Of a stretch of 9,053 nucleotides of DNA, positions 134 through 3,064 are shown in pieces (position 1 is the stretch's first letter; every line of letters starts with the position of its first letter). The translations under genes were made by a program, and so were the position numbers. The notes under the pieces are model-generated. The model was not told the origin of the DNA. It made no database searches and saw nothing but the letters and a program-made list of their open reading frames with translations. Origin of the DNA: Candidatus Zixiibacteriota bacterium (lineage in GTDB: Bacteria > Zixibacteria > MSB-5A5 > SM1-73); contig JAGMBK010000076.1 in the NCBI GenBank assembly GCA_023129805.1, forward strand, positions 1 through 9,053, written 5' to 3'.

Positions 134-2029
134 ATGGGACATCATTATGATGCTACCACTATCCAGGTTTTAAAAGGTCTGGATGCGGTGCGTCGAAGAC
201 CGGCCATGTATATAGGTGACACCGCCACTAAAGGATTGCACCATCTGGTGTATGAGGTGGTGGACAATAGCATCGATGAAGCTATGGGTGGGTTCTGCGA
301 TGCCATAAAGGTGGTAATTAACAAAGACGGCAGTGTGATGGTGGAGGACAATGGAAGGGGTATACCGGTCGACATTCATCCCACCCAGAAGAAGCCGGCA
401 GTGGAGGTGGTTATGACCATGCTTCATGCCGGTGGAAAATTCGATCACAGGACCTATAAGGTGGCTGGTGGTCTGCATGGAGTAGGAGTGTCGGTAGTGA
501 ATGCATTGTCCGAATGGTGTGAGGTGGAAGTAACTCGTGATGGGAAAAGGTACCACCAGAGATATGAAAGAGGAAACGCAGTCGTCCCACTCAAGCAGAT
601 CGGAAAGGGACGACATAGTGGCAACAAAACCACCTTCAAGCCGGATCCGGAAATCTTCGACAAAACAGATTTCAGCTTCGACGTTCTCTCTGCCCGAATG
701 AGAGAGTTAGCCTTCCTGAACAGAGGGTTAAAAATTGAAATTGAAGATCAGAGCACAGGCAAATCCAACCTTTTTAAGTATAAGGGAGGAATCAGCTCCT
801 TTGTCGAGTTCCTGAATGAGAATAAGCAGGTGGTACATCCCCGTCCGGTTTATCTTCATAACACCAGAAATGGAATTGATGTGGAGATTGCCCTGCAATA
901 TAATGACTCTTACACGGAGAACATCTTCTCTTATGTAAATAACATTAGCACCATTGAGGGGGGAACTCATCTGGTCGGTTTTAAGACCGCCTTGACCCGC
1001 ACTATCAACAACTATGCACAGAAGAATAATTTGCTGAAAAACGGGCAGGGTGCCCTGGAGGGGGAGGATGTTAGAGAAGGATTGGCGGTGGTAATCTCGG
1101 TTAAGATTCCCGATCCCCAGTTCGAAGGACAGACCAAGACCAAGTTGGGCAACAGTGAGGTAAAGGGAATTGTGGAATCGATCTTGGGGGAGAGCCTGAC
1201 GGAGTATTTTGAGGAGAATCCGCCTGTTGCCAGAAAGATTATGGAAAAAGCCTCTTCTGCCGCCAGAGCCAGGGAAGCAGCCAGAAAGGCGCGGGAGCTA
1301 ACCCGCAGAAAAAGCGCACTGGAAACATCCACCCTCCCCGGCAAGCTGGCAGACTGTTCGCTAAGCGATCCCGCACTTTGTGAGATCTATATCGTGGAGG
1401 GTGACTCTGCCGGCGGGTCCGCCAAGCAGGGGAGAGATCGAAGATTCCAGGCTATACTCCCTCTCAAGGGAAAAATCCTCAATGTGGAAAAGGCGCGCAT
1501 AGACCGGGTTTTGTCCAATGAGGAGATTCGCGCCATGATCACCGCCCTGGGAACCGGTATCAAAGATGAATTTGATATAAACAAAGCTCGCTATAATAAA
1601 ATTATCATCATGACCGATGCAGACGTGGATGGTTCTCATATTCGCACCTTGATTCTCACCTTTCTTTACCGACACATGAAGGAGCTCATCGAGAGAGGAT
1701 ATGTATATATCGCCCAGCCACCCTTGTATCGAGTGAAAAAGGGGAAAACCGAGCTTTATGCTTATTCGGATGAGGAGAGGGACCGTCATATCGAAAGACT
1801 GGGCAAACCCGGGGTGTCGATTCAAAGATATAAGGGATTAGGTGAGATGAATCCGGATCAGTTGTGGAAGACCACTATGGACCCGGAGACCCGCACCCTG
1901 CTTCAGGTCACCCTGGAGGATGGGGCAGAGGCAGATCATATCTTCAGCATCCTGATGGGTGACCAAGTTGAACCCCGCCGCAAGTTCATCGAGGAAAACG
2001 CGAAATACGTAAGGAATCTTGACGTGTAG
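134..2029 (+). CDS. gyrB: DNA gyrase subunit B
   Basis: This is the ATPase subunit of type II topoisomerase DNA gyrase, which pairs with GyrA to introduce negative supercoils. With the start at 134 it is 631 aa. GHKL ATPase motifs are plain: [10 protein letters not shown] with Glu41 and Asn45, DNGRGIP from Asp72, the [15 protein letters not shown] glycine-rich lid, and the transducer QTK at 333-335. The TOPRIM domain has [15 protein letters not shown] (Glu422) and DADVDG (Asp495, 497, 499). The C-terminus has [14 protein letters not shown] and ends in a typical [15 protein letters not shown]. It lacks the ~170-residue TOPRIM insertion of E. coli GyrB, as most bacteria do. An in-frame ATG at 95 would add 13 residues. 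I prefer 134 because it has the better SD and puts the catalytic residues at almost the same numbers as in E. coli (42, 46, 73). No gyrA follows; an accessory patch does. Confidence 0.97.
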
Positions 2030-2064
2030 TGCATTTTGGAAGTGCAAAAGATAGCTTTGGCAAG
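2001..2064 (+). repeat. gyrB-tail direct repeat, copy A (functional gyrB end plus 3' flank)
   Basis: The last codons of gyrB and about 35 nt after its stop recur at exactly +1000 bp (3001-3064). From 2006 to 2063 I count 45 of 58 identical bases without gaps, including the identical block AGTGCAAAAG (2041-2050, 3041-3050). The match fades after about 2064. The MNT-HEPN gene lies between the two copies. Confidence 0.75.
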
Positions 2065-2085
2065 TTTTTTGATGCACCTCTTTAT

Positions 2086-2120
2086 TGGTAACGGATGTCT
2101 CCTCCGTTGCCATTAATTTA
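2086..2120 (+). terminator. possible gyrB terminator
   Basis: TGGTAACGGA (2086-2095) and TCCGTTGCCA (2103-2112) pair over 10 bp with one G-U and a 7-nt loop. They are followed by TTAATTTA, a poor T-tract. Placed 57 nt after the gyrB stop, it could end that transcript, though termination would be inefficient. Confidence 0.4.
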
Positions 2121-2142
2121 GCGTCAGGGTCGGGTGTCCATT

Positions 2143-2163
2143 CTCCCCCACCTTTGGCGGGGG
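2143..2163 (+). repeat. C/G-rich hairpin repeat before the MNT-HEPN gene
   Basis: CCCCCACC (2145-2152), TTT and GGCGGGGG (2156-2163) form an 8-bp hairpin with one A-C mismatch. The 18-nt stretch 2143-2160 recurs in inverse orientation at 7949-7965 with one substitution or indel, so it looks like part of a dispersed repeat. It is followed by the small palindrome AGGATGAATCCT (2167-2178), whose sequence also recurs at 7688-7700. It lies where an upstream GTG start (2134) would put coding sequence, an argument against that start. Confidence 0.5.
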
Positions 2164-2214
2164 ATCAGGATGAATCCTTCAGGACAAGCCCGTGACGAAC
2201 AAGGAAATTCAATC

Positions 2215-2955
2215 ATGACCCTTTCGGAAAAGAAATATAAAGCCTTAGATTATTTTTTGAAATATCTTCTGAACACCGAGGCTAAAGAATATATTGCCAA
2301 GATCGTCCTTTTTGGCAGCCTTGCCAAAGAGAAAGCGACTAAAGATAGCGATGTGGATGTGCTGATGGTGGTGCTTGCCTCCAGGAAAAAAGTGGAGGAT
2401 TTAGCTGTGGATGCCTCTTTAGAAACCTCCTTGGCAATGGGTGAGAGCGTTGAGCCGATCTTTTGCGATATTGATGAAACCGAATTCATAAGATCTTATT
2501 TTATATACCGCACCCTAAAGGTAGGTAAGGAGGTATACTCAATGAATCTAAAGGAGCTTAAAATTAATGAGGCGGAAGGTTATTTGCAGCTCTCAAAGTA
2601 TTACCTTGAAACAGCCGAGGAGACACTGAAGCTTGAAAGATTTCGTGCGGCGGTAGATCTGGGATATAATGCCGCCGAACTATGCATGAAAGGGCTACTT
2701 ATCTTCGAGCTGGATGATTTACCTACCTCTCATGGAGGAATAGTTAATAGGTTTGGAGATTTACAGGTGAAAACTGGTGTAGTTGGAAAGGAGATTGCAA
2801 AAGCCATTAATGCTGGACTTCAAAAAAGAAATGATGCACGATACAAATCTGGAAGTGAGGTCTTAAAGGAGGACGCGGATTCTTTAATGGAAGCTGCCGG
2901 TAAATTACAAGCAATTCTGTTTTCAAAAATTGAGGAATTGAAAGCTAAAAAGTAA
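2215..2955 (+). CDS. fused MNT nucleotidyltransferase-HEPN domain protein
   Basis: This is a 246-aa fusion of the two halves of an MNT/HEPN toxin-antitoxin pair. Residues ~5-105 are a minimal nucleotidyltransferase domain with IVLFGSLAKEKATKDSDVDV: Gly34-Ser35, then metal-binding Asp46 and Asp48; Glu80 in SVEPIF may be the third acidic residue. Residues ~110-246 are an all-helical HEPN domain with YNAAELCMKGLLIF and SHGGIVNRFGDL. In the family, MNT enzymes can nucleotidylate a HEPN RNase partner and so neutralise it. The usual HEPN RX4-6H motif reads RNDARY (205-210), with Tyr where His is expected, so RNase activity is uncertain. The start at 2215 has AAGGA 9 nt upstream. In-frame starts at 2134 (GTG) and 2170 lie in repeat-like sequence and have no homologous look. 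The gene is followed by a gyrB-tail remnant and a solitary hicB. Domain assignment is firm; the biological role is inference. Confidence 0.85.
   Translation: MTLSEKKYKALDYFLKYLLNTEAKEYIAKIVLFGSLAKEKATKDSDVDVLMVVLASRKKVEDLAVDASLETSLAMGESVEPIFCDIDETEFIRSYFIYRTLKVGKEVYSMNLKELKINEAEGYLQLSKYYLETAEETLKLERFRAAVDLGYNAAELCMKGLLIFELDDLPTSHGGIVNRFGDLQVKTGVVGKEIAKAINAGLQKRNDARYKSGSEVLKEDADSLMEAAGKLQAILFSKIEELKAKK
2526..2544 (+). promoter_or_regulatory. internal ribosome binding site and ATG at the MNT/HEPN junction
   Basis: TAAGGAGGT (2526-2534) matches the consensus Shine-Dalgarno over nine bases and stands 7 nt before an in-frame ATG at 2542. Starting there would give a 137-aa protein (2542-2955) that is exactly the HEPN domain. 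It may be a relic of a two-gene ancestor or a working internal start. It could also be chance, since it encodes Gly-Lys-Glu-Val in the fusion. Confidence 0.45.
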
Positions 2956-2981
2956 TGGTGATGGAAAGGAAACGATAGATC

Positions 2982-3029
2982 CAGTATATATCGAAAACTG
3001 CAAAGTATGTAAGAAATCTGGATGTGTGA
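2982..3029 (+). pseudogene. remnant of the 3' end of a second gyrB
   Basis: In the frame ending at the TGA at 3027-3029, codons from 3000 read AKYVRNLDV and stop, the same nine residues and stop position as GyrB. Six of the nine codons differ from the gyrB copy, all by synonymous third-base changes, and the stop is TGA rather than TAG. Further upstream the match is degenerate: YI then non-matching residues, with an in-frame TAG at 2976-2978 and signs of a small indel. No start or other gyrB sequence precedes it. The pattern fits a fragment of a gyrB that diverged under selection in another lineage. Confidence 0.7.
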
Positions 3030-3064
3030 TGCATTTCAGGAGTGCAAAAGCTTGCTTTTGCTAG
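3001..3064 (+). repeat. gyrB-tail direct repeat, copy B (downstream, decayed)
   Basis: This is the partner of 2001-2064 at an offset of exactly 1000 bp. It includes the gyrB-tail codons and the 3' flank after the stop (17 of 20 identical over 3031-3050, then about 10 of 14). It separates the MNT-HEPN gene from hicB. Confidence 0.75.

Follow-up and report, generated by a model that had tools for sequence, protein, structure and literature searches.

Toxin-antitoxin-type modules between duplicated gene ends at gyrB and a few other housekeeping genes of Zixiibacteriota

Introduction

It has long been asked how chromosomal toxin-antitoxin modules move without transposons. We have analyzed a stretch of 9,053 nucleotides from a Candidatus Zixiibacteriota bacterium (contig JAGMBK010000076.1, positions 1 to 9,053; the whole stretch is called the window below), in which a gene for a fused MNT-HEPN protein stands between the 3' end of gyrB and a second, displaced copy of this end. 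Insertion with a long and variable target duplication was reportedly described for restriction-modification systems by Nobusato et al. in 2000 and by Furuta et al. in 2010. Two papers state that some restriction-modification systems insert with such duplications (PMC3874152, PMC3031569), which are around 100 bp long (PMC3874152), and a third cites the original paper for the apparent mobility of these systems (PMC2654758). Among known events, an insertion of this kind may be the closest to the one proposed here. Searches of open-licence literature listed no paper that reports such an insertion for toxin-antitoxin systems in its title or the first part of its abstract.

The loci described here share with the restriction-modification insertions a small module, the lack of a recognised transposase and direct repeats of about 100 bp that copy the target. 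Repeats of this kind, here 51-120 bp long, were found at 9 of 63 module loci, and second gyrB ends at 5 of 98 gyrB loci. However, the cargo is different and consists of MNT-HEPN, HicBA, MntA-HepT and RloB/AbiL genes, with no restriction-modification system among them; moreover, most targets are housekeeping-gene 3' ends and the stop codon of the module often abuts a repeat copy. MNT-HEPN and MntA-HepT toxin-antitoxin systems are classified as type VII. Like these, the protein encoded in the window combines a nucleotidyltransferase and a HEPN domain and has an intact GSX10DXD motif, but its two domains are fused in one reading frame, RNDARY replaces RX4-6H, and its activity is predicted. The dif modules of Acinetobacter plasmids are likewise small modules moved by host enzymes. 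They are flanked by Xer sites and use the Xer mechanism, whereas the repeats found here are the ends of different genes. This also sets the zixibacterial loci apart from integron cassettes, since no single attC-type repeat family is present. Integrative elements that insert into the 3' ends of conserved genes regenerate the gene end, and this feature is shared; in contrast to such elements, no integrase was recognised here, the inserted unit is only about 1 kb long and its limits are not fixed.

Results

The target gene gyrB occupies positions 95..2029 of the window on the plus strand, is complete with 644 codons and matches the Pfam families DNA_gyraseB, DNA_gyraseB_C, Toprim and HATPase_c. 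Its product is 93% identical to GyrB of G111, one of the 132 Zixiibacteriota genomes that form our phylum set. The live gyrB 3' end, together with bases past the stop codon (1994..2064, plus strand), aligns with a second copy at 2993..3064 on the same strand, and the two copies are homologous far beyond chance: the local alignment score is 62, the best of 1000 dinucleotide shuffles of both regions reached 30, and the best of 300 shuffles in a comparison of the tail with the 7 kb downstream reached 32. A chance match was rejected on these grounds. A repeat search of the window returned the tail pair as its first direct repeat family (70 nt, 76%, spacing 1000). The preliminary description had read the same peptide, AKYVRNLDV, from positions 2000-2026 and 3000-3026, each directly followed by a stop codon (TAG and TGA), and this is correct, as are its counts of six differing codons among nine, every one synonymous, and of 27 agreeing bases among 34 past the stop. 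The spacing of 1,000 bp that it emphasized was also measured, but it looks accidental, because in other genomes the distance between the two tails ranges from about 340 bp to 3.7 kb. A 1-base insertion is present in the second copy just 5' of codon 636. Homology 5' of position 2993 could not be demonstrated, since 1330 of 2000 shuffles of 2956-2993 score as well; the same test gives no support to a displaced tail that reaches back to the MNT-HEPN stop codon.

The gene between the copies (2215..2955, plus strand) encodes 246 amino acids with Pfam matches to NTP_transf_2 (7.1e-9) and HEPN (6.2e-11). A motif scan shows an intact nucleotidyltransferase motif GSLAKEKATKDSDVD, the GSX10DXD pattern at residues 34-48. 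The classical HEPN motif is RX4-6H. The HEPN domain is detected by Pfam, and at the place of its motif the scan found RNDARY, with a tyrosine where the histidine is expected. Six relatives of the protein are 83-97% identical, after which identity drops to 54%; none was found in the viral contigs and plasmids searched. Judged from these domains, the gene is a putative toxin-antitoxin-type module, and any activity of it is predicted.

Second gyrB tails occur in other genomes of the phylum as well. A gyrB match was present in 118 of the 132 genomes. We searched for each gene's own 3' tail in the sequence downstream (threshold score of at least 60) in 191 sequences: the window, 110 fetched gyrB-downstream stretches and 80 further loci, one of them also from Zixiibacteriota. 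The fetched stretches are gyrB matches that reach the gene end, with G042 and G083 excluded (fewer than 150 bases beyond the end). One of the 191 sequences lacked a gyrB end and 186 were long enough for the test. Seven of the 186 scored at least 60, including a repeat wholly past the stop codon (L051); repeats of this type, in L051, L158, L133 and others, were excluded as tails. The remaining six second tails are those of the window, G109 (L125), G013 (L117), G113 (L120), G075 (L180) and the Spirochaetia record L040. Among loci with at least 1 kb of downstream sequence this amounts to 5 of 98 in Zixiibacteriota, window included and with a few genomes contributing two loci, and 1 of 74 elsewhere. 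Between the copies lies the fused MNT-HEPN gene in the window (by Pfam), a HicB-HicA pair in G109, another HicB-HicA pair in G113, MntA-HepT in G013, and in G075 3.6 kb with an RloB/AbiLii protein, an AbiLi-type ATPase and a patatin; the L040 interval holds a 75-codon frame without a Pfam match. As the preliminary description had noted for the window, the six gyrB intervals between the copies contain no recognised integrase, with families scanned for the main frames only. The second tails of G109 and G013 are longer than that of the window, with 25 and 19 codons behind complete gyrB ends. In G013 the two copies are nearly identical and the duplication ends in the stop codon. Its sister G012 has a single tail and no MntA-HepT within 8 kb, and the region downstream differs before synteny resumes.

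As a control we applied the same tail test to forty 20-kb stretches of the phylum, from which 557 frames of at least 120 codons were taken. Scores of at least 60 were reached by 16 frames, of which 10 were runs of N, 4 were paralogues or dispersed repeats as judged by hand and 2 were tail duplications; the control gene L241, with a score of 57, stayed under the threshold. The gyrB frequency of 5/98 differs from 2/557 with p 0.001, and with p 0.015 if the four cases removed by hand are kept (6/557). Thus, gyrB is enriched for tail duplication, yet the phenomenon reaches other genes. The two control duplications, of 56 nt in L247 (G118) and 52 nt in L237 (G014), surround inserts of about 2.7 and 2.3 kb. 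Phylum-wide, the enrichment of toxin-antitoxin genes behind gyrB is weak: three HicA were found among 141 open reading frames (of 167; best 25 of 113 families), and the control frames gave no toxin-antitoxin family in 141 (of 169, repeats included; best 25 of 209 families).

We also approached the question from the side of the modules. For HicA, HepT-like and HEPN genes of the phylum 30 loci each were fetched, and 23, 21 and 19, respectively, had full flanks. A locus was taken as bracketed when a direct repeat with a score of at least 60 was present between the 1.5 kb on either side of the module. By this definition 9 of the 63 loci are bracketed, by direct repeats of 51-120 bp, and the sites comprise 3 gyrB genes (L294, L274 and L301, the cases of G109, G113 and G013), 5 other gene 3' ends and 1 intergenic region. 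At L322 an MntA-HepT module follows a 5S rRNA (Rfam), and the 5S 3' end with its hairpin and T-run is repeated. The repeated end belongs to a dehydrogenase-like (lpd-like) gene at L309, to a helicase-like gene at L278 (G075), where the module is antisense, to a glyS-like gene at L424 (G129) and to a purB-like gene at L422 (G106); these gene names come from our own reading of the sequences. The intergenic repeat of L305 may be a dispersed repeat, and L291, with a repeat score of 59, is not among the nine. Brackets were found at 0 of 26 acetyltransferase loci and at 5 of 198 random places, one of the latter being the tail duplication of L237. Compared with the pooled controls, 9/63 gives p 0.0006, and 6/60, without the three gyrB loci, p 0.014. 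One bracket lies at the head of a gene: in G113 (L120), two copies of 58 nt from the gyrA 5' end, at 690-747 and 1248-1305 past the gyrB stop, enclose a HEPN gene whose MNT start is truncated. Outside the phylum, HepT loci were bracketed in 4 of 21 cases in spirochaetes, of which L364 and L376 resemble repeat or integron cassettes by eye, and in 1 of 26 cases in Bacillota.

The boundary on the module side is tight. In 9 of 12 cases the distance between the module stop codon and a repeat copy is 0-12 nt, and the settling unit therefore tends to end at the module. The 12 are the gyrB cases of the window, G109, G113 and G013, the lpd-like, glyS-like, purB-like, 5S and helicase-like cases, L291, L305 and L040, the last with a frame of no known family; the G075 gyrB case (AbiL, patatin) and the gyrA head of G113 stand outside this set. 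For 9 of the 12 the gap values were confirmed on the sequence. The HEPN stop codon of G106 is immediately followed by the displaced purB-like end, and in G006 the HepT stop codon is inside the displaced 5S piece. The window is an exception, as its downstream copy starts 37 nt past the MNT-HEPN stop codon; the others are L278 (48 nt, an antisense module, measured to the live copy) and L305 (88 nt).

The surroundings of the second tail bear on the question of which copy is the resident one. A HicB-like gene (3141..3359, plus strand) follows the downstream copy. It has no Pfam match of its own and its HicA partner is absent, but it is 82% identical to the gene preceding HicA in G109, which lies directly behind gyrB and whose HicA neighbour is recognised by Pfam (3.3e-9). 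The HicB-like gene of the window is probably the remnant of an earlier insertion at the same place. The flank of the displaced tail matches the gyrB-HicB junction of G109 with a score of 57, and other pairings score 28-32. The downstream copy looks resident because its flank matches a junction that stands directly behind gyrB in G109, and on this comparison it is probably the older tail. The preliminary description had taken the second tail as the imported one, for which the flank comparison gives no support. The simplest order of events would be an ancestral HicBA insertion behind gyrB, a later arrival of MNT-HEPN between the gyrB end and HicB, and loss of HicA; if HicBA came first and MNT-HEPN later, the newer a module, the nearer to gyrB it would stand. 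The module behind gyrB in G113 is HicBA, and the HEPN gene with the truncated MNT start lies behind the gyrA-head copy.

Discussion

We propose that the gyrB 3' end was the site of entry of the MNT-HEPN module into the chromosome, and that two copies of this end resulted. The upstream copy would complete the live gyrB, and the downstream copy at 2993-3064 would be the displaced resident end, still beside the HicB-like gene. Through the duplication the target gene would retain its own end. The process would be recurrent in Zixiibacteriota, where compact toxin-antitoxin or abortive-infection modules would insert at housekeeping-gene 3' ends with a duplication of 50-120 bp, and at a 5' end in the one instance of gyrA in G113. 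The bracketing of toxin-antitoxin-type genes at gyrB and a few other housekeeping genes suggests a recurring route of entry into the genome that spares the target genes. The likeliest route may be recombination by host enzymes at the gene end, with an incoming piece that carries the version of a related organism; an integrase would then be unnecessary. Insertion with duplication of the gene end appears very probable to us, and the explanation as a whole likely; its enzyme and vehicle are presumed. An element specific for gyrB was considered and abandoned, as similar brackets stand at other genes and the repeat limits vary. Thus, from the earlier suggestion of an element that targets the gyrB 3' end, the insertion with MNT-HEPN as cargo is retained, but not the aim at gyrB. 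Several results weigh against this explanation. In two control genes the duplicated tails enclose an insert, and by eye no toxin-antitoxin gene was recognised there. The 6/60 of the set without gyrB loci reach p 0.022 against random places, but p 0.11 against acetyltransferases alone. In G129 the live glyS-like gene ends unlike the displaced copy, and the insertion therefore altered the last residues there.

The origin of the live tail may be sought in the silent sites of the copies. Eleven copy pairs have a readable frame and give 12 blocks, as the frame-broken lpd-like pair was divided into two in-frame pieces; the pairs from 5S and from the intergenic repeat, which have no frame, were excluded. 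Pooled, the pairs show 49 synonymous and 14 nonsynonymous differences, and the silent excess is strongest in the helicase-like tail of G075 (16 and 2) and in the window (6 and 0). About 22 nonsynonymous differences are expected if the dead copy received half of the changes (P 0.012). The two tails of the window are unlike at 8 of 30 sites, and from the live tail of G109 they differ at only 4 and 5, respectively, which favours import. The preliminary description had argued from the synonymous codons that the tails diverged as working ends. This receives weak support: the 6 to 0 in the window agrees with it, but the pooled P of 0.012 is lost without one dominant pair, since omission of the helicase-like pair leaves 33 to 12 with P 0.11 under the same model and 0.73 if a third of the changes are placed on the dead copy. 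With a third, the full set is expected to hold 15 nonsynonymous differences (P 0.44). Further points speak against import. The displaced copies of G113 are degenerate, with 4 nonsynonymous differences in the gyrB end and 3 in the gyrA head. Neither in the window nor in G109 does sliding identity along gyrB fall at the 3' end. The live tail of G013 equals that of its sister G012 in the last nine codons and the displaced tail differs, which fits copying in place. The nearest relative of each tail was compared over 30 nt, which is too short to decide. We regard import of the live tail as possible, at somewhat below an even chance.

Almost as likely is that the duplication was made in place, by a break or by replication that copied 50-120 bp of the resident gene end during joining, after which the copies drifted apart; we give this, too, a chance somewhat below one half. 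The geometry is that of a target duplication, the repeat length varies, and in G013 the nearly identical copies end in the stop codon and the coding part of the live tail equals that of G012. A bracket of this kind is also present at the gyrA 5' end of G113, along with decayed copies, and such an event has been published for restriction-modification systems (PMC3874152, PMC3031569). What speaks against it is the silent-site excess in the copy pairs, whose pooled P of 0.012 holds under one model only. A site-specific integrative element that attaches within the gyrB 3' end, and whose integrase acts in trans or was lost, would agree with most targets being gene 3' ends. Such ends are typical integrase targets. 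However, the different target genes, the variable repeat limits, the one gene 5' end and the six gyrB intervals in which no integrase was recognised make this explanation very improbable.

For an assembly artefact, in which the alleles of two strains were joined in a metagenome contig, one could argue that many of the genomes are probably metagenome-assembled and that some copies differ as alleles do. The pattern appeared at 0 of 26 acetyltransferase loci and at few of the 557 control genes, and two cases lie on a single contig of more than 675 kb (G129:C8), so that we regard an artefact as very improbable. The preliminary description had named the remains of a second gyrase gene as an alternative. 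That the second tail stems from another gyrase or topoisomerase gene, or is a chance match, would suit the nine codons and flank that are all the window keeps, but shuffles score far below the match, no gyrase sequence is demonstrable before the second tail, and G109 and G013 have longer second tails behind complete gyrB ends. In a protein search with the tail, which is limited in reach, the matches away from gyrB in the phylum were second gyrB contigs and weak ones in other frames, with no orphan tail among them; the search also missed the degenerate tails of G113 and G075. This last alternative is thus extremely improbable.

To return to the entry of a module at a gene end, the modules might spread as a unit of gene end plus module, with recombination between the two copies releasing a circle that enters the same gene end in another lineage through ordinary homologous recombination. 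We consider such a spread unlikely. If it took place, essential genes would serve as conserved docking sites, a module would not need a recombinase of its own, and successive modules would stack behind gyrB with the newest adjoining the gene. Independently of this, a module stop codon beside a displaced housekeeping-gene 3' end is a footprint that can be scanned for, which makes the question testable in any genome set. Our reading would extend the idea of long target duplication from restriction-modification systems to toxin-antitoxin and abortive-infection genes.

Other observations

The space behind gyrB is variable in the clade of G011, G108 and G014. Accessory genes, including a RelB/RelE-like pair (by eye) and HicBA, were seen there at L124, L126 and L123, and no second tail scoring 60 was present at these three loci. 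In Spirochaetota, two tail matches occurred in 5 of 247 genomes (E 0.01), in none of them on one contig. A gyrB-like tail stands in a 72-codon frame of one spirochaete (G299:C217:7169-7282), on a contig other than that of its gyrB. The spirochaete loci L364, L376 and L382 carry HepT modules near repeats that by eye resemble integron attC sites. The gyrB genes of L004 (labelled ANME-2) and L048 (Thermoplasmata) are 66% and 60% identical to the bacterial gyrB of the window; these contigs are possibly misbinned or the gene was transferred. A radical SAM gene is a further neighbour in the window, and some of its relatives carry the name Candidatus Zixiibacteriota. Finally, the window contains two copies of a dispersed palindromic element, GGTAGCCGCACCC...GGCTACC, at 4658-4717 and 8365-8420.

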